Below, one piece after another: positions 2,514 to 17,653 of a stretch of 27,267 bases of DNA (position 1 is the stretch's first letter; every line of letters begins with the position of its first letter). The stretch is from positions 426,028 through 453,294 of the forward strand of contig FN647849.1 in assembly GCA_000310025.1 (NCBI GenBank), written 5' to 3'. The notes under the pieces were generated by a model that was not told the DNA's origin, did no database searches, and was given only the letters and a program-made list of their open reading frames with translations. Both the position numbers and the translations under genes were made by a program. This DNA is from Ectocarpus siliculosus. Its lineage: Eukaryota > Sar > Phaeophyceae > Ectocarpales > Ectocarpaceae.

Positions 2514-5500
2514 TCAGTCGCGTCGCGCTTCAAACGCTTCTCTCGTGAAGCGGCCTAAGATTGGGCTGCGACTCGACCCGGCCGCCGCGGCGGAAAGGAA
2601 TCCACCCGCTGTGGCGCTTACCCTGTCCAATGACGACATGATGCAGCACGGAGAAAATGTGAGAGAGAGAGATAGAGAGAACACGAGGCAAACGGGGTGG
2701 ACGCGCAAAGCGGGTTGGGGTGGGGTGGGGGTATCCGTGCCATTGTGGTCATGCTTTTCAAACGAAAAACAACGGCGGCACTCGAGAAGAGGTAATGTGC
2801 CGGTGGTGGCAGGATGTTGACGAAGCCGAACGAAAGTCTAGAGAAAGCCGCAGGGAAATGAACTTTCGAGACGCGTTCGGTACGCATGGTAGGAGGTTCC
2901 ACGACGATGAATAAACGCACCGCGGCTTTCGTACGGGGTGATTGGGTAGGGGTGAGAAGACAGCCCGCGTGGGGTCCTTTTTTTGCTTGTGATGTGCACT
3001 CTTGAAGCAGGCAAAACTTGTTCTTGGTGCTTCGTATTCGGCTTCCTTTGCGATACGCGTTCTGGATCGCAGGGCGGGAACAGGGGTGTCGTGCAGTCTA
3101 CAACGATTTTTGGTAGGGCCCAGAACGGTTTCAACGTGCGTACGTGACGCAAGCGACACCCGTGGAGTCAATCTCACAGAGGCGTGACGAGAACGAACGC
3201 CCTCTTGGCTTACATGACCGTGGGAATGAGCGCTTTCTCCCCGTCCCCCTGGTCCGCCATAACCCTCAAGGTGGTCTCCGCCGTGTTGGCGATGATCACG
3301 CCGAGAGCCCCGGCCCTCTGCGCTGCGAGAGTCTTCATGCTGAAGGAGCAGCCCCCCCTCTCCACCACCGCGAACATCCCCGACACGCGCACCTGCTTGT
3401 GGGCACGCCGACGAGAGACTTGGAGCTCGTTCGGTTCCGCCCGGAACCAAACAACAAGAAGAGCGGTTCTTCCGACCACACGTGCTTGATCGTCGGACGT
3501 TGAACAAAGACTGCTTGTCCAATGCTACAAGTACTTGCAAGGCTGCCGCTCGCACGTGCGTGGTACCGGCCGAGGCAGGTGTCAAAAAGGAGGTACAGCG
3601 GCCAAGAAAGGTGTCACCCGGGAGGTACAGTGCCCCCTGCTTTGACGACACCACGAGAAGGAGGTGCTGTACTCCCTTGCTAAATTTACAAACGTCATGT
3701 AAAGTCAACGCACACCAGCAGCAAACCGAGGGCCTGTACCTCCTCCTTGTTGAGACGTACCTCTGACTGAGCGCTCGTCTCGTGCCCTCGACATTCACCC
3801 CTTGCTCACCTTGTAAGCCTTGTCCTCGCAGCCGTCAATCGGATCGGCCACCGCGATCGCGACAGGAGAGGCTTCCGCGTCCCCGACTCCGGGGCCGTAC
3901 CGCGCCAACCGGTAGTTGAACTCCCGCCCGCCCTGAGCTTTGGACAGCACAAGAAACCGCCCGCCGTCGTCGTCGTCTTTTCTCGCTTTCGCCCCTTCAG
4001 CCGAGTTGCATTTGGTGAGGAAGGCGCAGTACGATTCGTTTTAGCCGCCACCCATCTGACTAGGGGGTCACACGTTCTTTCGAAACGGCCGAAACACGAG
4101 CTTTTGCTGACCTCAAAAGGCGTTGGATAGGTGTGTCGCCCTATCCCTTGGTATCCCCTCGTCCTGGCATTGCTGAATGCTCGGTGCTGGTGGGTTTCGC
4201 TCCTAGATAGACCAGCAAAGAGGGAGCCGCTTTCTCTTACCACGTCGGATGCTTCACGCCGAGAGTCAAACGAGTAACCACGAACCTGGGTTCCGCAGCT
4301 TTTCCGTGCCCAATGTGCGCCCCTCAGGGAACACAACAGATGAACGGCACGTCAATCCCGTGGGTATCCATCGGCTATATATGGGGTTCCGCAGAATTCA
4401 CCACGACGGAACGGAGAATCATCTCAGGGAAGACGGAATACTTGTCACGAAGATTTTCCGTGCCCGCAGCCCGCCCCCTTACGGGACACAAGGGCTGGAT
4501 AGCACGTCCATTCCACCATTCATTGAGTTCCGCAGAATCTATCCCGACTACTCGAACAGAAGAAGCTACACTTATCACGAAATTCTGCACCTTGCTCATC
4601 TGCCGATGGCGTTGGGGACGGCAGGGGGCACGCGCCGTAGGGAGAGATGGCCGCTCGAACTTCCACTCCCCAGGACAGAAGCGCCTCTACGCTGGACCCG
4701 TTTCCCCGCGAAATCCTAGCAAATCGTTTCGTTCCGGAAAGGTGCGGCTGATATCTCGCACATGTTGTGGATGACAGAAACGCAAGGCTTGACGGAGAGC
4801 TCTGGTCTGACGTTCTTCAAGAGTAAACACTTCCAATCTTCGCTACCACCAAAACGGAGAAGATTCCACGTGTTTCGTGGGGGCCGAGCCGTGGTGGAAA
4901 AAGAAACAGCATCGTTGTAAGCTTGGCTTCGCCAGTCGGTTAATCTTCTTCGGGGTGTCCCCAACTTTCGTTTGCAAAGGTTATCCCTAAACCTGGCGGT
5001 GCGTTGCCGTTGTACTCACATCGCCACCGGGATGTTAACGTCGTCGGTCAGCAGGTTCCCCGCCGGCATGTCCGCCAGAGCATCGTCTCCGTTCAGCAGC
5101 ACCATCCCGCCCCCGACCACCGCTGCCCCGCTCGCGCCTCCAGCGCCGCTGCCACTATCCCCCGAAGAGACGCTGCGTGTAGCAGCAGCAGCGGCGGCGG
5201 CGGAGTCTGCAGCCTTGGTGCTGGTGATTACGTCTTCTCCGGCAAGAGCGGTCGTGTCTTGCGGGGGTGCGGCTGTGTCAGCGACGGCGTTGAGAACGGC
5301 GACTTGGACGTTCTTGGCCTTCTCCACGAAGGTGCAAACCCCGCGCTTGACGAGAGCGATTACTGGTTCTCGTCCGTCACCGACCTTATCGAAAGAGGCA
5401 CACCGAAAACGGAAACCATTGTCACACCACCGAGTTTGATTTATTTCACGGGTTTGACGCTTGACAAGGCTGCTAGACCATGTTGTTAGCATAGCGAGAC

Positions 5501-6125
5501 ATGCAAGGGGTCCGACTAGTGAGCCATCCCATATGTGCAGGTGGGAATTTCAGTGGTTGGGAGAATTTCCGGAAAGTGGAAGTATTGCCACAAACTACGA
5601 GGGCGTCCGTTTCGAGTGTAGACTTTGGGCACGCTCGCATCTGCACTGATTCTCCTTCTCCGCTCCGAGCCACTTACGAAAGCTCAAAGGTAGCCCTATT
5701 CAAAGCACGGGTCGTTTCGCGGTTCATCCCGAAAGTGCTTACAGTATTCTTGAACCGGTTGGCTGTGACTACCGCCAACGACCTATCCTACGAAATCGCT
5801 ACGGTAGGTACTCTCGTAACCATCGGTCTCGACGCCGCAACAGTTTGGTACTCTTTGAAATAATGTTGAAGACAATCGTTAAAGAATGTCAGGTAACGAC
5901 AACTAAATATATTATCTTGAGCGGCACTACGCCGCGCCCTAACCCCGGGCGCACCTGAACTCCCCCGCTCAGCAGCCTGAGATTGCGCTGGCATGCCGGA
6001 GGGGGATCGGATAGAGCCATCGAACGAGGCTCGCAAGACCACGACGGCTGTGCTACATCCTCCTCACTAGCACCGCGCAGCCCCCCCCAGTCTTTTGGGG
6101 CTTGCATCAGGTACTCTCCGCGCAC
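2514..6125 (-). CDS. Tandem PA (protease-associated) domain protein, 5' end unresolved
   Basis: Six exons read on minus: 6125-5955, 5384-5020, 4715-4591, 3994-3810, 3392-3214 and 2622-2514, stopping at TGA 2514-2516. All five GT-AG junctions agree in phase (0, 2, 1, 0, 2) and the exons total 378 codons including the stop. The product has two PA domains. PA1 shows DPPPAC, VKRGVCTFVEKAKNVQ, an Ala/Gly/Ser-rich insert of about 50 residues, MVLLNGDD, MPAG, and IPVAM joined to ISRGNG. PA2 shows ADPIDGC, VERGGCSF, AQRAGALGVIIANT, and IPTVM joined to VSATAGG. PA domains are non-catalytic substrate- or ligand-binding modules of secretory and vacuolar proteins. The protein ends 35 residues after PA2 with no membrane segment or protease domain. 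The start was not found: the first exon begins at phase 0 with VRGEYLMQAP and no ATG, so either a 5' exon lies upstream or the exons continue the PDZ gene next door. Exon calls are strong; gene limits are not. Confidence 0.8.
2658..2680. repeat. Short GA microsatellite
   Basis: A GAGAGA/GATAGA tract about 20 bases long. Read on minus it supplies part of the CT-rich tract upstream of the last PA-gene acceptor at 2623-2624. Confidence 0.5.
4290..4590. repeat. Degenerate repeat inside a PA-gene intron
   Basis: The words GTTCCGCAG (4290, 4386, 4527), TTTTCCGTGCCC (about 4300 and 4454) and a CTTRTCACGAA-type word recur with spacings of roughly 95-150 bases. The array occupies the intron 3995-4590 and runs up to the 5' splice site of the exon at 4591-4715. 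It is a diverged direct repeat of unknown origin. Confidence 0.45.
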
Positions 6126-6693
6126 CTGAAGTTGAAGAGGGAAGGCGCGCACGGGGGGGGGGGGTGACTGGGCGGCCGAAAGCTTATGTACGAGGCATCC
6201 GGCTGGTTACCATTCGCGGTGGGCTCCACGAGCGAGTGAAGGCACAGAGGGGAGTGCGAGGCGTCTCTGTTCCGTGGAATATCGAACAATTGTGGCGCAG
6301 TAAGAACGTGGTCTAGGCTCGGCTTGATGGTGATTCTTCCAACTACACATCTTCCCAGAGCATCGAACTTCGCGACGCAGTAGGCCAAGAGCCCAGGCGA
6401 TCAGAAACCATGTACGAGCACAGAAAAAATGCCCTGAAACGTACGTCTAGCTGAAGCAGAGATGTAATAACAGGAACTTGCGGGAAACACAATCACAGGA
6501 GGCACAATGAGTTGAAAACAATTCGAGTCGAAGCAGAGAAAGAAAAAACACGTGCGTGATACAAATCAGGACGCACAATCTCTGGTTCAGTGACCACCAG
6601 GCCAAGCAGGAAGGGCTCGTCCGATCCCTCAGCCACCAAGCTTCCCGGGACGGAGAAAGTCAGCACCCTCGGCCACACCGCTCGCTGCAACAC

Positions 6694-6896
6694 CTGCCTC
6701 CCGGTTTCCGCGACAATACACGATGCCACAAAACGGAACGGAGTGGCGAAAAGCGTGTGAGGCGGGGTGTATTCCCGACTGTTGTGTTGTTTCTCAGTTC
6801 GGGCGTCAAATTCTGGGATGACTAGTTTCGAGACCTGGGGCAAGGCCTGGCCGCGTCCACCGTTCGGGGAAAACTGGCGAACGGCGAAGAGATCGC
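6694..6896 (-). other. Candidate extra exon between the PA and PDZ blocks
   Basis: On minus an open frame follows a good acceptor (tttttacag, ending at 6897) and reaches a donor CAG|gtgttg after 203 bases (one partial codon plus 67 codons). The exit phase is 0, which would suit the first PA exon, and codons are fairly GC-rich. The frame stays open to the TGA at 6493. The sequence (GDLFAVRQFSPNGG at its start) matches no family I know, and its entry phase 1 does not suit the last secure PDZ exon. It could be a 5' exon of the PA gene, but it has no methionine. Confidence 0.2.
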
Positions 6897-7760
6897 CTGT
6901 AAAAACCCGGCCTAAACTGATGGATGTACGTTCTCACGGCACCCGTCACGTGCGCATTTTCGCGTCTTTGACACCCAAACCCAGCACCACTGGATCCCTT
7001 GTTTCTCCTGTGGACCTCTTCGGTACGTCAAGTGTAGATCATGCACTCATGCGTACGGCCCTCGTTGCAACAGCAGGACAAGATATTTGCAATGGGGTCC
7101 ACAGCATATGGTTTCCGACCAAGGTTTATCCCACTGCATGCCCAAGGCAACTTGCGCAACGCCCGGCCTCTTCGGCTTCATGGAGGGTCGACCTACAAGA
7201 AAACTACACTATAGCGCACACGCTGAATATGCTTTTCTTGCCGTCAAATGGAACCCCAACAAGAAAGAGAAACGCCCTCGTGGGTAGCAGCTACCCGAAA
7301 CTGTCAATGCGTTTATATCTTTGGCGTGCTCAAAAACAGCCGCCCAGAGCGCTGGGGTCAGCACGCACCTTAAGAGCCGCAGTCGGTTTCATCTCCGACG
7401 TGTCTCGCTCGTTCACTCGTACCTGCCATACGCAGGTGTATCATTGCGCAGACGCTCTCTTCTGTGTGAGGGTGTACTACGGGGTCAAACAGGGTACACC
7501 AAGGAATCACGCATAGGTCAACAGGGGAGGTCGTATCGTCCGCAGGGCCTCCTACATAAATGACCAGCCGATATTACCATGAGATCGCGTTGGTTTTTCC
7601 GTGGGCTGAAGGTTGTCTCTCTCGCCTGATGCGGCGTTTGAGTGCCTCCCTTCCCTCCTTCAAGAGATATTTTTGGTATACCGATGCATGGTGGTGGACA
7701 GAGGTGTCTCGCCCGATCAGTATTATAATATCCCTCGACGACTGATTGCGCAATAATCAT

Positions 7761-10700
7761 CTACCGCTGAGAACGGCAAACCTCTCCGGAATTGCCCCAG
7801 CACAGAGTCCTGCCATCTGAGTAAACCTTCAACACATCAACAACGCCTTTTTGTTCCCAAACGATTGTTGCAGTTGTTGTTAACAATGAGTCAGCTTTGT
7901 ACGACTCCGGCCGCGTGCATGCGTGCTTTGTTGTCGGCCTGAAACAGGTGGGGGTTCTCACCAAGTGATCTCCGATCTTGACGCCGGCTATGTCGGACAA
8001 CCCGCCTGCGGTTACTTCGCTGACTACAGCGAGAAGGTTAGCTAGATCGAACGTCAGTCCCATTGGCGCCACTTCCTTGTACCTGAAACGATCACCCGCG
8101 CGTGTTGCACAACAAAAGCAGCCAAAGAGAAAGAAGCGGTAAGGCTGGTCGTCCCCCAACCATTGCAAGGCCAAGGGATCTTCCTGCCGTGCACGTTATT
8201 CCGCTAACGTGTGGTACACCACGCTCGATCAGGTATGTCTATCTGAGACGAACAGGCCGCTAGGTGGAACCGTTGCGCCCTGGGTACATCTAGATTGCCC
8301 ACCGAGGGGCGTCCCACCGACCCGAAGTGCTATCGACCGCTCAACAGCCCGCACCCTGGGCGATGTTCCTAACCGCCAGTGCTTTCGGGGGGGTTAACTG
8401 TCATACGAGGTTGCTTCTGGGATCACTGCCATTTTCTATTCCCAAAGGGTGTAGAAAAGAAACAGTCTCGCTCGCTTAGCTAACAAGAGAGAAACCCTGC
8501 GTGGCCTTGTTTCTTGTCTCCCTGTGGGACCTCGGTTGGTGCATCCAGAGAAAACACCACAAGAACCCGACGTCTAGAATAAGTGAGACGACACGAAAAC
8601 ATTAGGGCGCTCACTCGGCGGTGAACGTGAACTCCTTCCCCTCCTTGCGCAGTCTGGCCATGTCCTTCTTTGACTTTTCGGCCGAAAGCTTGGCCGCCTC
8701 TTCCTCTCGTCGTACCCTCGCTTCCTGGCAGACCAAAGGCAAGATATCACGCGGGGACCGTAGTGATATGCTATATTATCACATCACTGCAACTTGTGAG
8801 AACACGTTGCCAACCGAGGAACTGGAACCTCTTTCCGTCCAGAGCACCCTCGGGTTTCATTTTCCGAAGCTCTCACCTAATGCGCTTACTGGTATTAAGC
8901 TAGGTGTTCGAAGACCGACTGCTTTTCACCTCACCTCCTGCCGCTTTTCGTTCGCTATCCTGTCTATCTCGGCCTGCTCTCTCGCTCGCTCCGCTTCCCT
9001 CGCCTTTGCGGCGGCCTCCAACTTCCTATCCTCTTCCTCTTTCTCCCTTTTAGCGGCCTCGAGCAAGGCCTTCGCTTCTGCGAGGGCGCGTTCTTTCTCC
9101 TACGGAAATCGTTCGGAATGACAGAGCGTCACGATACTCTGTTGATGCAGGTTGATGTGAAAATAACGTCTCACAAGGTCCGGACGACAACGTGTCGAAA
9201 CACAGGGTTGTTGCCGGTTGATGCGACCTCGACGTCTCAGAACGTCCGAACCACAAAAGCGTCGCAAAACTCTGTTGGTGCCGATTGAATTGAAAGCAAC
9301 GTCTCAGAAACCAAGCCAACGTGTGGAAGAGCGGTGGTGAAGCAATGTGGGCCTAGACCATCGACGTGGGCACCAGGAAAGTGCAGCTAGCCTACGTTTC
9401 GCCTTTGTCCCTGGTTTTCGAGAGGTGAGCAGGTTTTAGTGTCTACTTAGTCCTCTTACACAATAACTCATGCTTTCTTGCCTCCTGCCGTATCATTCAG
9501 TCCCTCTCCCTGGCGTGTCTGACCTTTCTTTCTGCCGCTGCAGCGTCGTTCCTTTGTTTGATTAGCTCAGCTATCCGCGCCTCTCCCGGGCGAAACGTAA
9601 CCTCAGCCCCATCCAGGCCCACCAGCTCAACTTTTAGGAAACCCTTGAGACGAAATCCCGCCGTATTTTCCATGGTTCCTGGCGGCGATGCTGCATCTGC
9701 TCCTGCTGTGGGTCGTCCTTCGCCAGAAGCTAGCGCGATGCACATTGGGTCGTTGAGTTGTGCGGCGGCGCACCGCTGATTGCCGAAACCGTCGTCCGAG
9801 GAAGCGGAAGAATTACTTGGATGCGATTGCGGATGTTTCGTGCTTGTGCCGCCACCGTCGCTGGTAACGTCCACTAACGGAAAGATCGCCAACCTTGCGG
9901 TGCGAGAGGCCGTCAAGAAAAAATGATGAAGCCGTGTTGAGCGTGGTTCGGTAGCAGGAGTGTTAGTTGTTAGATAAAGACTTATCCACTAGCTACTCAG
10001 TCAGCGCTGAGTAGCATAGTGGATAAGTCTTTATCTAACACGGAGAAGTGAGCGAATAAAGCTACAGTGACGGTGGCGGAGCCTGGGATGTGTGAGACCG
10101 CAGGCGCCACGTAACTTATGGTGGTGAAATCCTTTGTCACCTGGCGAACCGACTGTTTCATGCGATTGACGCCCTATCGTGCGATCGCGTCATGTTTAGG
10201 AAATACTGTGCTGTGAGAGGCAATAAACGTACTTCTCAGATAAACGCGAGCTGCACGTTGAGTATGATAAACGAGAATACACCTAGTACCGCCGCAACAC
10301 CTTGATCAACAGCGGATAGCGACTCCGAATACGCCCACACAAGCACGAACTATAGCCACACACAGAACGCTAATCTGAGACAAACAATTTCAAGAGTACC
10401 TGGCTGTCGAAGAATCAGACGCGGGCTGATGCGTTGCCAAGATTGTCGCCATTGATTGCTCGATCCACTCGTTCAGAGAGATGGAAGATAGGGGGATGTC
10501 GTTGACCTTTACCAGAAGGTCACCGCTGACAACTCCCGTCGCCTCCTTCAAACAGGACGAACACAGTGGGGAAGCACAAAACTATCGGGTCCAGCCAGTT
10601 GGTCACTCTACCGGCAGCGGCAAGCACCGGTATGAATATGTGTTCATCGTATCACGTATCCAACGCTATGTATCCACCGCTAACCCTCCTATGTGTCCGC

Positions 10701-11111
10701 TTCATTGCGTTGCCACCACCACACCTGCTCAGCGTCACTCCTATGCATACTGCCGTTTGGGAGTTTTGCAAGATATTTACTCACAGGACTCCGGGCTTCT
10801 ACGACCACAAAGCCGGCCGAGCGCTCCGCTGCGTGACCTTCGCCGTCGTCCTCGGATCGTTCTTCTCTTCTGCCTGTCGGTGTCTCGCTCCCAGTAGCAG
10901 CAGGACCACCAAGACTTGTGATCATCAGCCCTTCCAGTCGATCCCCCGCTCCCGATACGGCAAAGTCCAAGGACGACCCTGTTCTTGCCTCCATGCTGCT
11001 GCTGGTACTTCTCCGATCGCTATCAGCAAGCGCAAGCGGGATAACTTTATCGGTGCAGACTATGAAAGGGAGATATCCAAGAGATCGCAGAAGGCTTGAC
11101 AGGGTTGCCAT
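7761..11111 (-). CDS. PDZ - coiled coil - PDZ domain protein
   Basis: Exons on minus: 11111-10785, 10545-10400, 9893-9524, 9099-8935, 8724-8615, 8082-7962, and a weak last exon 7826-7761. Junction phases agree throughout (0, 2, 0, 0, 2, 0) and the total is 435 codons. PDZ1 spans exons 1-2 (GFVVVEARSP, then GVVSGDLLVKVNDIPL, then R-LAIFPL). Exon 3 has a Ser-rich linker and FLKVELVGLDGAEVTF. Exons 3-5 give a charged Ala/Glu/Lys/Arg coiled coil of about 95 residues. Exon 5 ends GKEFTFTA and joins exon 6, YKEVAPMGLTFD, VVSEVTAGG, AGVKIGDHL, a second PDZ. PDZ domains bind short peptides, so a cytosolic scaffold is likely. The start at 11111 was chosen for its A at -3 and G at +4; ATGs at 11189 and 10994 are alternatives. 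The last exon leaves PDZ2 short. Instead, exon 6 may splice to the PA block at 6125. No orthologue recognised. Confidence 0.72.
9126..9301. repeat. Three diverged direct repeats of about 67 bp in a PDZ-gene intron
   Basis: The motif ACGTCTCAnAAnGTCCG, then CACAnnnnCGTCGnAA, then CTCTGTTGnTGCnGnTTGA, recurs three times starting near 9126, 9165 and 9234. The first copy is partial. The array lies in the intron 9100-9523 directly beyond the acceptor of the coiled-coil exon. No coding potential is seen. Confidence 0.55.
9968..10040. repeat. Near-perfect long inverted repeat (hairpin)
   Basis: Left arm 9969-10000 and right arm 10007-10039 pair along 32 bp with one bulged T and a 6-base loop (TCAGCG). 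Outer ends read GTTAGATAAAG and CTTTATCTAAC. The element is AT-rich, unlike its surroundings, and sits in the intron 9894-10399 of the PDZ gene. No clear target-site duplication is visible. It may be a very small MITE-like palindrome or a hairpin-forming RNA in the intron. Confidence 0.75.
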
Positions 11112-12163
11112 GCTTCGTTTCCTCCTATGTCTCGAAGAGTTATCTCGACGCTGATCGGTATCGGATCTCGGATGATGATGTTGTGCCATTGGTGTTGATG
11201 ATTGTACAGCAGTAGTGCTGGTGGTGCTGGTGGTGCCGTAGGAGAAGCACGTGTTGTTTGGGTGATTTCCGCTTGACGGTAGTGGCAACGAAGAGGGTTC
11301 TACTTTCGGTTCTCGCAGGTTCCGCGGCGGTCCATGAACTTCAATGGTCAGTACACTTTGGATCAGTATCCGACCTCGACTAAAAAAAAGCTATTCCACG
11401 TCGACCCGGAGCTTTCTGCGCGCCGAATACGGGGATGGACGTTAAATATCTTTCTTTATTGGGTGCGTTTTTGGTATGCTCACTTCGGCGGGTGATTGAC
11501 AACGACTCAATTACCTAGTCCAACTGGGGATACTGCTGTGATCCTAAAGATTGTGATGCAATTCCTTTCGGGCACATGAAATCCCATTGTTCACACATCG
11601 GAAGTAAACCGTGTAAACGTCGCTCACTCGAGGGCGCGTGTCGGAAACATTTAAAAATCTGAAACCGCCAGAAGGCCGATGAGCCAAGTCACGCCTGTCG
11701 TAGTTGAATGTGTGTCTGGCCTTCATTGAAGCTTGAACATCAATGGGTCCTGATCTATGTGGTAGGATTGGGCATTGCGTGCTGCACATACGATTCTACG
11801 ACATGTTTTAGCTGTTAGATATGTCAATGGTATCTCTGACTCGCCTCCCACAGCCCCGTGTGTACCCCCCCCGCCAAGCTCCGACAAAATGATTCCCCGA
11901 CTCCCCCATGCGGAGAGCTAACAACTGCTGTAACACACAAGCAACAACTTGTGCGACAACAAGAGAACGGCAACCCACGGGACGGCTGTGCACCCCTCTT
12001 GTTCCCCAACTTTCACCACATTAGCTACTACGGAAGGGTACTGGCATCTACCCGCTGCGGTACGAGTAACACAAAGGAGGACGCCGAACCGAGCAGTGTT
12101 TGAACACTCTCCTCTTTCAAGTTTAAAAATCTACGAAGAGGCGAGCTGTTACACGACGACATC
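11112..12163. promoter_or_regulatory. Shared divergent intergenic region
   Basis: About 1.05 kb separates the inferred start codons of the minus-strand PDZ gene and the plus-strand TXNDC9 homologue, so it must contain both 5' UTRs and probably both promoters. I saw no clear TATA box near either ATG. Candidate upstream ATG extension of the PDZ gene (11189) falls inside. A TTTAAAAATCT stretch occurs just before the TXNDC9 start, near 12121. Open frames here are short and have no support. Confidence 0.4.
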
Positions 12164-14792
12164 ATGAATCTCGGTGGCATGGAAGCTATCGCTCAGCAGG
12201 TGGCCGGGAAGGCCATCCTGGATCACGCGAAGGAAACGGAGCAAAAGTTGGTGAGACGTGTGCGTTGTGGAGTAGAGGTTCACAAGAAATCTACCACTGC
12301 CTTTGCTGCGGGAACCTTGCGTTGCTACTCTCCGACATTGCTGTCTACCGTAGGTGACGTAATATACCATACCCCCTTTTGGCCAGTTTTCAACGCGCGA
12401 CTCCTCCAAGACGAAGAGGATGCCAACATTAAATGACATGTTGTCGGAAAGATCTCGAAGAGACGGTTCCAGCGACGCCATTTTCAGCACTATGGCACTC
12501 TACTGTGGAGTATTCGAGCTTCGAAAATCGGTCCACGGGGGGGGGGGGTTATCTTGGGTCATCTTCGGGTACAGTCAGTTTGGTTTGGTGTCAACCAACA
12601 GCGTAGGCTGCCGTAGCATTACACCGAGAAGTCTATTCGCAACATCCCAACGCCCGAGTTCGTGTGAAAAACATTGCGGGTATTTTCAATCACCGAGTGC
12701 TGGAAAATGTACCTTCTGGTGCAGTCTAACAGGCGTCCCACTTTTCGGCGCCGTACATAGATACCTCAGCACTTCTTCATTTTTGACCAGCGGGGACTTT
12801 TCTGTGTCTGGGTAACACCTACCGTAGCATGACTCAGCCGTAGGGCTTTCCTGTTGAGGGCTCTTGCTGTAGCCTGTGGCTGACAGGACGCCATCCACGG
12901 TAGTAGGGGTTCCCCCAGCGTATTACAGCAGTAGTGGTGGATAAGGCCGGTAGGTGCTAGCCCCGGTACCATCGCGGGCAACCGGCATTTTTCAAATTGA
13001 ATGTTCCATCTGAGCTAGACGATTAAGCAATAACACCGGCATTGTGCAGGGCAACCAACATTATATGGCGGGACCACTGCTGTAGCAACACGCGACGAGG
13101 TCAATGCCGATGTCAATGTTGGTCTATGCATACGACACTCAACTATTTTATGCGGAACACGGAACGAACGTCCCGTCCCCGTCCTAGGACGCAAAACTGG
13201 CCAAGCTGGACAACATGGATGAGGACGACTTGGACAAGCTTAGGGAGAAGCGGAAGGCGCAGCTCATTGCCGCCCAGAAGATCAAGCAGGTGAGGGTACG
13301 GGGAGAGGCAATAAAAACGCGACTGGTGGCTCGGTCGGTAGTCTACGCAGGTCCTTCTAGGCAAGCAAGCATACTGGATACAGTATAGGATCGGCTCAGT
13401 CGGGGTTAGGGTTACGGTCTGCGTGCCCCCTCCTTTGTTCGGTCTTTTTTCGTAATAAACTTGCATAAGCAGTCTGACTCGGTGAGAGACGTCGGCGAAA
13501 TTGAGAGATCGAGGCCGTTCCTTGCAGTTGTAGGCACCCTAATTCAAGTCATTCGTCATTGCTCCCTGGACACGGAACAATATTATAGCGGAGCAGCTGG
13601 CTACCGCACTGAGAGGGCGAGGGTGGTGTCTTGGGACACAAGCTCAAGTTGCCGCAGCAGTGAGGAATCACGATTCGATACGCGCACCTTCTCGGCAAAC
13701 GCCGGGCTTGGCTTGAAATTGTGTTGTCACTGCTATTTCGCGTCAAGGCCCCTGAAAGGCACGCCCATCGTGCCTTTCAGGGGGATATGCTGCGTAGCTC
13801 AAAGTTCAGCAACGACATAAGACATCGAGCCTTGACCCCGACAACTGGCTCTTATTTTCCGCGGACGACAACGACCATGTCTACTGCTTTATTCGACCCA
13901 CGACGCTGCCCGTGGGTGTGTATTCTGAATCGTCGGGGTTACTCACCCCTAAAGCAACTTACACCCTGCTAAGAAATCCAGCTTGGCTTCTTGTCTTAAG
14001 ACCCTCAAAAAAATTGGCTTAACCCGGAAAAATGTTTCACCTAGCGGAATGCTCGAGGTATTCCAGGTTGTCCCCCCTCCGTCCCCCCCCGGCGCCACTA
14101 ACAGAACACGCACGTTGCGCTGTGTTTTGCTCTCGAGGAGAGGCACCCCAGAGAATAGACACCGCCTCCTCCTGTGGAAACCTCGGCAGTTCGATTGATC
14201 CAGCGAGGATGCGTTTGCGTTTTGGGCACAAATCGTCGTTGTTTTGACGATACCGTCCCCCGTGTGGATGTGTTTCTATTTCCACTCACACGCATATACA
14301 CAAGATTCACACGCCCCCCCCTTGATGTTGTTTTTTTGAGTAAATAGGACAACCTCTCGAACGGACACGGGCGGTACTCCGAGCTGCCTGACCAGCCCGC
14401 CTTTTTTGAGGCGACCAAGAAGAGCAAGGTTAGTGAGATGGAGGTTCGAGCTCGAGTGGTATTGACCTCGTCTTCACTGCCCACATTGAGGATGAAGAGA
14501 AGGGGAACCCTTGTTTACTTGTTCATAAGTTTCTTGAGATGCAGTTTTTTTTTGTGCCGTTTTGATTCTCTTGCATGATGACAAGTGACAATCCACGTAT
14601 CGTTGTAGGTTGGTGGGACTGCCGCATGAACATCCTGCATCCGACGAGCCCCCTTTTCACTCAGAGTAAGGGACTGCTCGTAACGACCAGCGACCGCTTC
14701 TCCTTGGCTTCGAGGAAGAAGTGTAATTTTCTCCTGACTGACTTTTCGTCTGTCATTTCTCTCTCTCCGTCTCTCTCTCTCTCTCTCTCTGT

Positions 14793-14863
<71 letters not shown>

Positions 14864-17154
14864 GTCATCTCTATCTCTCTTTATCTGGTGNNNNNNNNNN
14901 NNNNNNNNNNNNNNNNNNNNNNNNNNNNNNNNNNNNNNNNNNNNNNNNNNNNNNNNNNNNNNNNNNNNNNNNNNNNNNNNNNNNNNNNNNNNNNNNNNNN
15001 NNNNNNNNNNNNNNNNNNNNNNNNNNNNNNNNNNNNNNNNNNNNNNNNNNNNNNNNNNNNNNNNNNNNNNNNNNNNNNNNNNNNNNNNNNNNNNNNNNNN
15101 NNNNNNNNNNNNNNNNNNNNNNNNNNNNNNNNNNNNNNNNNNNNNNNNNNNNNNNNNNNNNNNNNNNNNNNNNNNNNNNNNNNNNNNNNNNNNNNNNNNN
15201 NNNNNNNNNNNNNNNNNNNNNNNNNNNNNNNNTTATAAAAATAGGCCCGGGGGGTTGGGGGGGGTTTTTCCCACCCCCCAAAAAAAGAGAAAAAAAACCT
15301 CGGGTGGCGGTTTTGAAAAGGGGATAATTTTGGGGGGGGGGGGGGGTTTTTAAAAAAAAAAAAATTTTTAAAAGAAGGGGGGGGGGTGGTCCCCCCCGGG
15401 GGGGGTTTTTTGTGGGGGGGGAACCCCCCCCCCCCCAATGCCCCCTGGGGATGGGGTTTGGGGGAAAAAAGGTCCCCTCTTTGGGGGGGGGGGGGGAAAA
15501 GGGTTTAACCGTAAGGGAAGGAAAAAAAAAGGGGGGGGCCCCCCCCCCCCCCCCCCCCCCCCCCGACGGACAATGTTTTTCGATCGTTTGCTTTTCATGC
15601 TGGCACCGGCCGTGATGTGACGTGACGGATCGTTTTTGCCTTGTCGCAGTTCTGCAAGATCGACGCAGAGAAGTCGCCGTACCTTACCGAGAAGCTCAAC
15701 ATCTTCGTCATGCCTACCATCCTTCTCATCAAGGGAGGTCACACAATACACCAGGCAAGAACGTTCGTTTTGGCGTGGGGGTGTGTGCGTAATAGACGGC
15801 ACCGCATCGCACGGCAGTACTGTAGCCAAGTGCTCTGGCCAAGTTTAGCGTCCACCTGTTTTGTGTCATTGCTCTGTTGTAGCGAACACAAAAATCGGGT
15901 GGCACCACTGCTGCACCTAGCCTAGTAGCCGCTCTGCCGGCAATAGCGACCTGCCCTGAATGTCCACCACACCCTGTGTGCTGTTCCGTGGCACTCCGTA
16001 CGAACCAGATAGATGTACCACTTTCCGGGTGAACAAGGCAGGCACATTCCGTCAATGTGTCTGTAGCATCATCGTCTTCTCCTTTTTCCGAATGCATGCT
16101 TCTTTTGTCTATCCTGTTGGAATCGGACCCATGCTTTTGTCTGTTTGCATGATCGTCGTCTCCTTTTTCCGAATGCATGCTCCTTTTGTCTATCCTGTTG
16201 GAATCAGACCCATGCTTTTTTCTGTTTGCATGATCGTCGTCTCCTTTTTTCCGAATGCATGCTCCTTTTGTCTATCCTGTTGGAATCGGACCCATGCTTT
16301 TGTCTGTTTGCATCAGCGTCTCCTTTTTTCCGAATGCATGCTCCTTTTGTCTATCCTGTTGGAATCGGACCCATGCTTTTGTCTGTTTGCATGATCGTCT
16401 TCTCCTTTTTTTCCGAGTGCATGCTCCTTTCTTGTAGCGTGGTGGAATCAGATCCTACATTTTGTCTCTTGCATTATTTTCTCCTTCCCGTTTTCCCGAA
16501 TGCATTCTCCTTCCTCCTACAATCGTATTGGAATCAGATCGTAAATTTTCCTGCACTGCTGTAGCGTCATCTTCTCCTTTTTTCCGAATGCGTGTTCCTT
16601 TCTTGTATATTGGTGGAATCAGATCCGCGGGTTTGAGGAGCTGGGTGGCACGGACGACTTCCACGAAGACACGCTAGCCTTCGTGCTAAGGTGGGGATTC
16701 CGGAATGCAGCTCTCAACTGTGGTGGTAATCTCAGCAGTCGGACGTGGTGGGAAGGGGCAGGCATCCAGTCAGGCACCCATCAAAGCTTGCGCACCACAA
16801 CTTTTCCCTTGTCCACCCAACCCCCGCCCCTTTCTCCGTAAATTCGACTATTGTTGTTTACGCTGCTCTTATCGGTGCTGTTGTTGTTAGTGCTGTTGTT
16901 GTTGTCTAAGCGTAAAAACCGTTCAGGTGTCTCCTCATTACCCTTCCAAGTACTAAATATTTTACGAAAAACGCGAACGTCTGCCGCCGTGAAACCGTAC
17001 ATCTCCCAGCCAATACGGCGTCCTCAACTTCGACGGAGAACCACCATCGGACCCCACGAAAGCTTCGGCCGGGGTTAACTCCATCGCCATGAAGATGCTG
17101 GGGAAGGGGGCGGCAAGGGCGGGGGCTAGGGAAGGCGACGAGGCCGACTACTAG
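12164..17154 (+). CDS. TXNDC9: Thioredoxin domain-containing protein 9 / phosducin-like protein 3 (exon missing, probably in gap)
   Basis: Visible exons: 12164-12250, 13188-13289, 14348-14428, 15650-15754, 16623-16690 and 17010-17154 (TAG 17152-17154). Visible phases agree (0, 0, then 0, 2 after the gap). The order of motifs matches TXNDC9: N-terminal helix (MNLGGMEAIAQQV), LDNMDEDDLDKLREKR, NGHGRYSELPDQPAFFEA, then FCKIDAEKSPYLTEKLNI, the cis-proline MPTILLIKGG, GFEELGGTDDF, YGVLNFDGE, and a tail ending DEADY. This family has a thioredoxin fold without a CXXC redox centre and regulates the CCT/TRiC chaperonin during actin and tubulin folding in the cytosol. About 32 codons between KKSK and FCKID, covering the family's HFYR-type strand and following helix, are not visible and probably lie in the N gap. 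The visible parts plus this estimate give about 227 residues, close to the family's usual 226. Intron 15755-16622 has a GC donor. Confidence 0.93.
13749..13783. repeat. Perfect 15-bp inverted repeat with 5-base loop
   Basis: Arms 13749-13763 (CCCCTGAAAGGCACG) and 13769-13783 are exact reverse complements around CCCAT. It lies in the TXNDC9 intron 13290-14347. There is no T-tract or other sign of a terminator, so its role is unknown. Confidence 0.75.
14757..14882. repeat. (CT)n microsatellite
   Basis: About 120 bases of nearly pure CT dinucleotide, broken by a short GTGTGT and one ACTCGTCAT segment, end eight bases before the N run. It lies in a TXNDC9 intron. Long open frames reading Ser-Leu or Arg-Glu across it are artefacts of the repeat, and it is a likely cause of the assembly break. 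Confidence 0.9.
14891..15232. other. Assembly gap (342 N)
   Basis: Undetermined bases within TXNDC9. The missing thioredoxin-fold exon belongs between 14429 and 15649 and is not visible in the readable parts, so it should fall here or in the corrupted bases just after. The true gap length may differ from the N count. Confidence 0.95.
15233..15564. other. Low-quality, homopolymer-stretched sequence
   Basis: Nearly every run of G, C, A or T is expanded (up to 24 or more C), composition is abnormal, and no exon reads through. Normal sequence resumes at GACGGACAATG, 15565. This looks like a poor read end beside the gap and not biology; bases here should not be trusted. Confidence 0.85.
16070..16625 (+). 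repeat. 82-bp tandem array (7 copies) ending at the TXNDC9 3' splice site
   Basis: The landmark CCGAATGCATGC recurs at 16088, 16169, 16251, 16330, 16413, 16496 and 16584 (spacings 81, 82, 79, 83, 83, 88), the last three diverged. Each unit runs through TCTCCTTTTTTCCGAATGC, TCCTTTTGTCTATCCTGTTG and GGAATCRGA. The array fills most of the second half of the GC-AG intron 15755-16622. The GGAATCAG of the last unit is the acceptor used by the exon at 16623, so the array supplies the polypyrimidine tract and splice site. Confidence 0.85.
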
Positions 17155-17184: not shown

Positions 17185-17420
17185 ATGCGACACGCGCCTT
17201 CTCGTTGTTGGGGTGCCGGCTGGAGTGTTGACCTCGGCCAATCATGCGACACGCGCCTTCTCGTTCTTGGGGTGCCAGTTGGAATGTTGGTCTCAGCCAA
17301 TTATGTGACACGCGCCTTCTCGTTCTTGGGGTGCCAGTTGGAATGTTGGCCTCAGCCAATCATGCGACGCGCGCCTTCTCGTTCTTGGGGTGCCAGTTGG
17401 AATGTTGGCCTTAGCCAATC
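17185..17420. repeat. 59-bp tandem array, 4 copies
   Basis: Units begin at 17185, 17244, 17303 and 17362, exactly 59 bases apart, each running from ATGCGACACGCGCCTTC to CTCAGCCAATC with a few substitutions; the first copy is the most diverged. It begins 30 bases after the TXNDC9 stop, so it is probably in the 3' UTR or just beyond. Because 59 is not a multiple of 3, open frames through it shift frame between copies and are not coding. Confidence 0.9.
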
Positions 17421-17653
17421 AGCGCCTGGGTATCCTCGCTCGTCACCTGGAGCTGTACCGTGCCAGAGTGGTTCTCGCCAAGGTGTCGTAATTTCCAGCC
17501 ATCTTTTCGCTATGGTCGCCTAGAGGCGACGACGGTCGTACATTTCTTGGCGTCTGGAGGGAGAATGGAGAGGGGGGAGAACAGCCTTCTCGAGGCGGGA
17601 GGTAAGAAAGGGGAGGGCGGCACTTGGCATTTCGAGGGGGAACAGGCGACAGG

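Follow-up and report, generated by a model that had tools for sequence, protein, structure and literature searches.

A predicted Ectocarpus gene in which PDZ and PA domains are probably joined through two overlooked exons

In a 27,267-nucleotide stretch of the Ectocarpus siliculosus genome (contig positions C475:426028-453294, hereafter the window; the assembly comprises 189 Mb in 492 contigs), the minus strand of positions 11111-2514 very probably holds a single gene whose product would combine PDZ and PA domains in one chain. An earlier sequence-only reading had proposed that a PDZ block and a PA block lying here may form one gene by direct splicing from 7962 to 6125; the union of the blocks is supported by our analysis and the direct splice is not. 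We assign the two blocks to one gene because two overlooked exons between them, E7 and E8, complete the second PDZ domain (PDZ2) and begin the first PA domain (PA1). The gene model is thereby corrected at a point where a simple phase argument goes wrong.

Gene model and the two bridging exons

Exons were rebuilt from the reading frame and splice sites, the earlier reading having placed two of its twelve by coordinates. The result is an 847-residue model of 14 exons, with a frame that is unbroken throughout, in place of the twelve exons and about 790 residues proposed earlier. All 13 introns are of the GT..AG type and measure 210-675 bp each. The predicted domain order is a weak PDZ1, a charged helix, PDZ2, PA1, and PA2. 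Coding scores were obtained with a 3-periodic model trained on 30 kinase matches from the same genome (4018 codons), using the other introns of the gene and positions 2500-100 as background. The exons, in window positions, are as follows.

E1, 10785..11111, minus strand: start ATG at 11111; possible weak signal peptide and first part of PDZ1; coding score -1.3 bits
E1 alternative start, minus strand: in-frame ATG at 11189
E2, 10400..10545, minus strand: PDZ1 core (GDLLVKVND), with sub-threshold PDZ_6 and PDZ matches
E3, 9524..9893, minus strand: end of PDZ1, linker, and start of the charged helix; open in the chain; coding score -10.8 bits
E4, 8935..9099, minus strand: charged helix of Ala, Glu, Lys, and Arg
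E5, 8615..8724, minus strand: end of the charged helix and first strand of PDZ2
E6, 7962..8082, minus strand: first half of PDZ2, with the PMGLTF loop, ending KIGDHL
E7, 7369..7422, minus strand: middle of PDZ2, VRVNERDTSEMKPTAALK; phase 0 to 0; newly added
E8, 6577..6693, minus strand: last part of PDZ2 (VLQRAVWPRVLTFSVP), then the first PA1 strand (LVVTEPEI); phase 0 to 0; newly added
E9, 5955..6125, minus strand: PA1, beginning VRGEYL
E10, 5020..5384, minus strand: core of PA1, which includes RGVCTF and an insert rich in Ala, Ser, and Gly (about 5301-5110); PF02225
E11, 4591..4715, minus strand: end of PA1 (IPVAM/ISRGNG)
E12, 3810..3994, minus strand: first part of PA2; PF02225
E13, 3214..3392, minus strand: PA2 core with RGGCSF; PF02225
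E14, 2514..2622, minus strand: end of PA2 and stop codon; coding score -5.5 bits

The rebuilt exons reproduced the phase-0 exit of exon 8082-7962 after GDHL and the phase-0 entry of exon 6125-5955 with VRGEYL, both as previously described. The PDZ block was also correctly said to lack a convincing last exon: read-through from 7961 to a stop near 7762 codes at -24.9 bits. When PDZ2 is taken only as far as GDHL, it yields 12.3 bits for PDZ_6 and 12.1 bits for an unrelated DUF, relative to Pfam cut-offs of 23.2 bits for PDZ (PF00595), 27 for PDZ_6, and 23.9 for PA (PF02225).

For E7, we considered the 73 AG sites within 7940-6126 that are each followed by at least 12 open phase-0 codons and a GT, and scanned against Pfam (E <= 0.001) a test peptide for each acceptor that consisted of the last 25 residues of E6 and up to 23 residues thereafter. 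Only the acceptor before 7422 produced a PDZ match (PF00595, E 1.3e-5, 25.9 bits; PDZ_6, E 9.9e-5), with a test peptide that extended five residues into the intron; no PDZ match at this threshold came from the other 72, the direct 7962 to 6125 join included. The same acceptor ranked first among 79 when compared with the harmonin PDZ fragment (score 67; next 53). At the level of sequence, E7 is shown to continue the predicted PDZ2 in phase 0 toward the PA block.

E8 appears to bridge the two domains, with PDZ2 finishing inside it and PA1 gaining its first strand from it. It codes at +4.1 bits, compared with -12.6 bits just upstream (6834-6694) and -14.1 bits just downstream, and among 1296 open control segments as long as E8 its score was reached once; these segments overlap one another and much of the background set so that low control scores are favoured. 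With E8 starting at 6693, PDZ2 in the whole model scores 31.6 bits for PDZ and 28.8 bits for PDZ_6, and with a longer E8 the values are 29.5 and 27.4 bits; all four exceed the cut-offs. In the PDB, PDZ2 aligns with harmonin across E6, E7, and E8 as far as the final strand (E 0.011); a longer query containing the longer E8 gave E 0.36.

On its downstream side, the junction of E8 and E9 (LVVTEPEI followed by VRGEY) aligns with LKVTSPDSIKGIY, where the PA domain of VSR1 begins, with a score of 33. Among the 87 phase-0 donors of the interval this one scores highest (next 24). The 259 donors that lie within the 13 introns do not exceed 28, and when the E8 tail was shuffled 5000 times, 33 was reached in 5 cases. 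Elsewhere in the interval, a sliding coding scan of the minus strand showed an unused other frame at 6330-6181 that peaks at 2.3 bits.

Alternative gene structures and opposing evidence

The direct splice from 7962 to 6125 has phase 0 at both ends and usable splice sites, but it would cut PDZ2 in half, and the resulting GDHL-VRGEYL sequence matches no Pfam family even at E 10. It would also require an intron of 1836 bp, compared with 210-675 bp elsewhere in the gene, and the single joining intron of about 1.8 kb envisaged earlier instead contains exons 7422-7369 and 6693-6577. We regard this structure as having next to no likelihood. Two adjacent genes on the same strand, with a PDZ/helix gene ending and a PA-PA gene beginning within 7961-6126, would accord with the usual service of PDZ and PA modules in different compartments, and an ATG is available inside E9 (VRGEYLM). 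Against such a boundary stand the coding score of the read-through after E6 and the phase-0 extension of the PDZ domain by E7 toward the PA block; moreover, the open frame of E8 contains no ATG and yet carries the apparent first strand of PA1, which would be lost to a gene starting at the E9 ATG. Two genes are in our judgment quite unlikely.

A single gene with somewhat different borders, which overlaps the 14-exon model, is also unlikely. The acceptor before 6834 is in phase 0 as well and leads to an unbroken frame of 894 residues, but the added stretch, 6834-6694, has the poor coding score given above, and the longer E8 lowers the PDZ score from 31.6 to 29.5 bits; E8 as 6834-6577 was replaced on these two grounds. 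An E8 from the acceptor before 6896 was ruled out by phase. Another variant concerns the Ala/Ser/Gly-rich insert of E10 in a loop of PA1 (5301-5110), which codes at 4.1 bits in frame versus 5.0 bits in another frame and may hide a small intron.

Several observations weigh against the single-gene, 14-exon model or parts of it. Coding scores fall below zero for E1, E3, and E14. For E7 the coding score of -0.9 bits, equalled by 401 of 2962 control segments, is uninformative. On the strand opposite E8, two of three frames are open and one codes at 5.4 bits versus 4.1, so the coding score of E8 cannot fix its strand; E11 behaves likewise in this comparison (3.7 versus 2.8 bits). When the comparison is restricted to harmonin, second place among 51 goes to the acceptor before 6693 (78; best 79 at 7328), and this ranking therefore does not single it out. 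A phmmer search with E8-E11 retrieved VSR1 only at E 0.25, with a match that was not extended into the E8 strand. The top PDB hit of PDZ2 is no PDZ domain: a WD-repeat kinase chain is matched on E8 residues (E 0.0027), and no single stretch passes by itself. PDZ1 lies below the Pfam cut-offs, with PDZ_6 at 20.4 and 14.8 bits (of 27) in two queries and PDZ at 15.9 bits (of 23.2); its PDB match is HTRA3 at E 1.1. Of the two PDZ modules proposed earlier, PDZ2 passes its cut-off once E7 and E8 are added, and PDZ1 is weaker than had been stated. By hydropathy, a possible weak N-terminal signal peptide does not stand out from chance among 78 ATG-initiated open reading frames (ORFs) of the window: the N-terminus reaches 1.53 over 11 residues, a value equalled by 17 of the 78, and 14 of those 17 also show a small-residue cleavage pattern.

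Domain content and proposed function

PF02225 exceeds its cut-off of 23.9 bits in two stretches (71.2 and 69.4 bits), bearing out the earlier recognition of PA domains in the downstream block; PA1 queried as E8-E11 scores 26.9 bits. The whole 14-exon model carries the PDZ match of 31.6 bits and a PA match of 69.4 bits together. Each PA domain contains an RGxCxF motif, RGVCTF at residue 541 in PA1 and RGGCSF at residue 764 in PA2, and this motif is widespread among PA domains. The PMGLTF sequence of PDZ2 lies at the carboxylate-holding loop of PDZ domains. The charged helix (about 90 residues; window about 9555-8620) may be a single alpha-helix and not a coiled coil, since Ala, Glu, Lys, and Arg abound in it and Leu is scarce. 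Two N-glycosylation sequons occur, at 185 and 654. At E 1, the Pfam matches of the 847-residue model were confined to PDZ, PA, and a single unrelated family below its threshold; no catalytic domain was among these matches, nor were EGF, thioredoxin-like, RING, or Peptidase_A22B domains. No membrane span is evident in the model, the best 19-residue hydropathy being 1.52.

The predicted protein resembles several known systems in part. Its PDZ2 aligns with the PDZ domain of harmonin, as noted above, and so recalls the PDZ scaffolds harmonin, TAX1BP3, and scribble, but in the Ectocarpus protein PDZ is joined to PA domains; to our knowledge, those three scaffolds lack PA domains. With VSR1 and the RMR proteins it shares a PA domain whose cargo loop is of the RGxCx-aromatic type. 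Among PDB entries, PA2 (queried as E12-E14) matches VSR1 best (4tjv, E 4e-5), and PA1 aligns at its start with the PA domain of VSR1. VSRs, however, carry thioredoxin-like and EGF domains (PMC12796998), and RMRs are described in the literature as carrying a membrane span and RING; by Pfam (E 1) and hydropathy none of these was found in the predicted protein, which has two PA domains and PDZ instead. The PA-TM-RING ligases GRAIL and RNF13 also carry a PA domain, which in them binds proteins on the extracellular or lumenal side (PMC4021871), but the predicted protein lacks a RING match and an evident membrane span. SPPL proteins are likewise eukaryotic PA proteins, and the predicted protein has no Peptidase_A22B match. 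Among secreted PA peptidases, such as the M28 aminopeptidases and keratinase KP1, the latter is matched by PA2 (E 9.1e-5); unlike these, the predicted protein has no peptidase domain that we could find.

The protein is probably located in the secretory pathway or extracellularly, since the receptors, peptidases, and ligases that PMC4021871 describes have their PA modules in the lumen or outside the cell. In VSR1, the C-terminal carboxylate of cargo is held through salt bridges by Arg95 in the motif 95RGDCYF100 (PMC12796998), and the PA domain of a secreted aminopeptidase has been likened to PDZ in its tendency to hold peptide C-termini (PMC10449631). From the role of Arg95, the RGxCxF motifs of PA1 and PA2, the likeness of PA to PDZ, and the PMGLTF loop, we infer by analogy that the protein may be a multivalent binder of protein C-termini. 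It would not belong to any known kind of enzyme. PDZ2 would take one C-terminus through its PMGLTF loop, PA1 and PA2 would take others through the RGxCxF arginine in the manner of VSR1, and the charged helix would space PDZ1 from the rest of the protein. That it serves as a secretory receptor or scaffold, neither VSR nor RMR, which reads C-termini by two unrelated folds, PDZ and PA, in one chain and gathers several cargoes, is a tentative and rather doubtful proposal. One chain would combine two folds able to read protein C-termini; if the protein is lumenal, its PDZ modules would be in an unusual place, and a cargo-binding role would be directly testable.

Genome and literature searches and neighbouring sequence

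Genome searches at E 0.01, whose counts are lower bounds, returned at least six matches for the PDZ half, all inside the gene, and at least nine for the PA half, of which seven lie in the gene and two are distant PA exons (on contigs C26 and C14); no second copy of either half was found. A genome search with the PDZ family gave two matches, neither in the window, which was probably missed because its exons are too short. Among 29 chosen ORFs around the C26 and C14 loci, none carried PDZ at E 0.01, two carried PA, and two carried Peptidase_A22B; the C14 locus, with PA and Peptidase_A22B matches among these ORFs, probably encodes an SPPL protein. The PA gene at C26 (L020:9284-9589) scores 45.9 bits, and a large ORF downstream of it (L020:6521-7276) is PA-like by eye only. 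Viral contigs gave 15 pattern matches and no relative. No eukaryotic non-protease protein with PDZ and PA was named in open-access papers, among the matches listed, and in the excerpted text of papers naming both domains no single protein holds both. The two families are each known, and the combined architecture may be annotated elsewhere.

Intron 2 contains a perfect inverted repeat (window 9968-10040) with two 24-nt arms and 25 nt between them. A 23-nt arm occurs at 16 genome sites with at most two mismatches, compared with none for the reversed control, and eight of the 16 form four opposed pairs (on C475, C9, C6, and C52); these sites make up a small transposon-like repeat family. Divergent from the PDZ-PA gene, at about 12164-17153 on the plus strand, is a gene with a thioredoxin domain (27.4 bits; exons joined by eye), which we take to resemble TXNDC9. 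It is interrupted by an N gap (14891-15232) and the homopolymer-rich sequence next to it on the downstream side, and in or near its 3' part are two minisatellites, at 16058-16512 and 17185-17421, whose repeat units measure about 81 and 59 bases, respectively.

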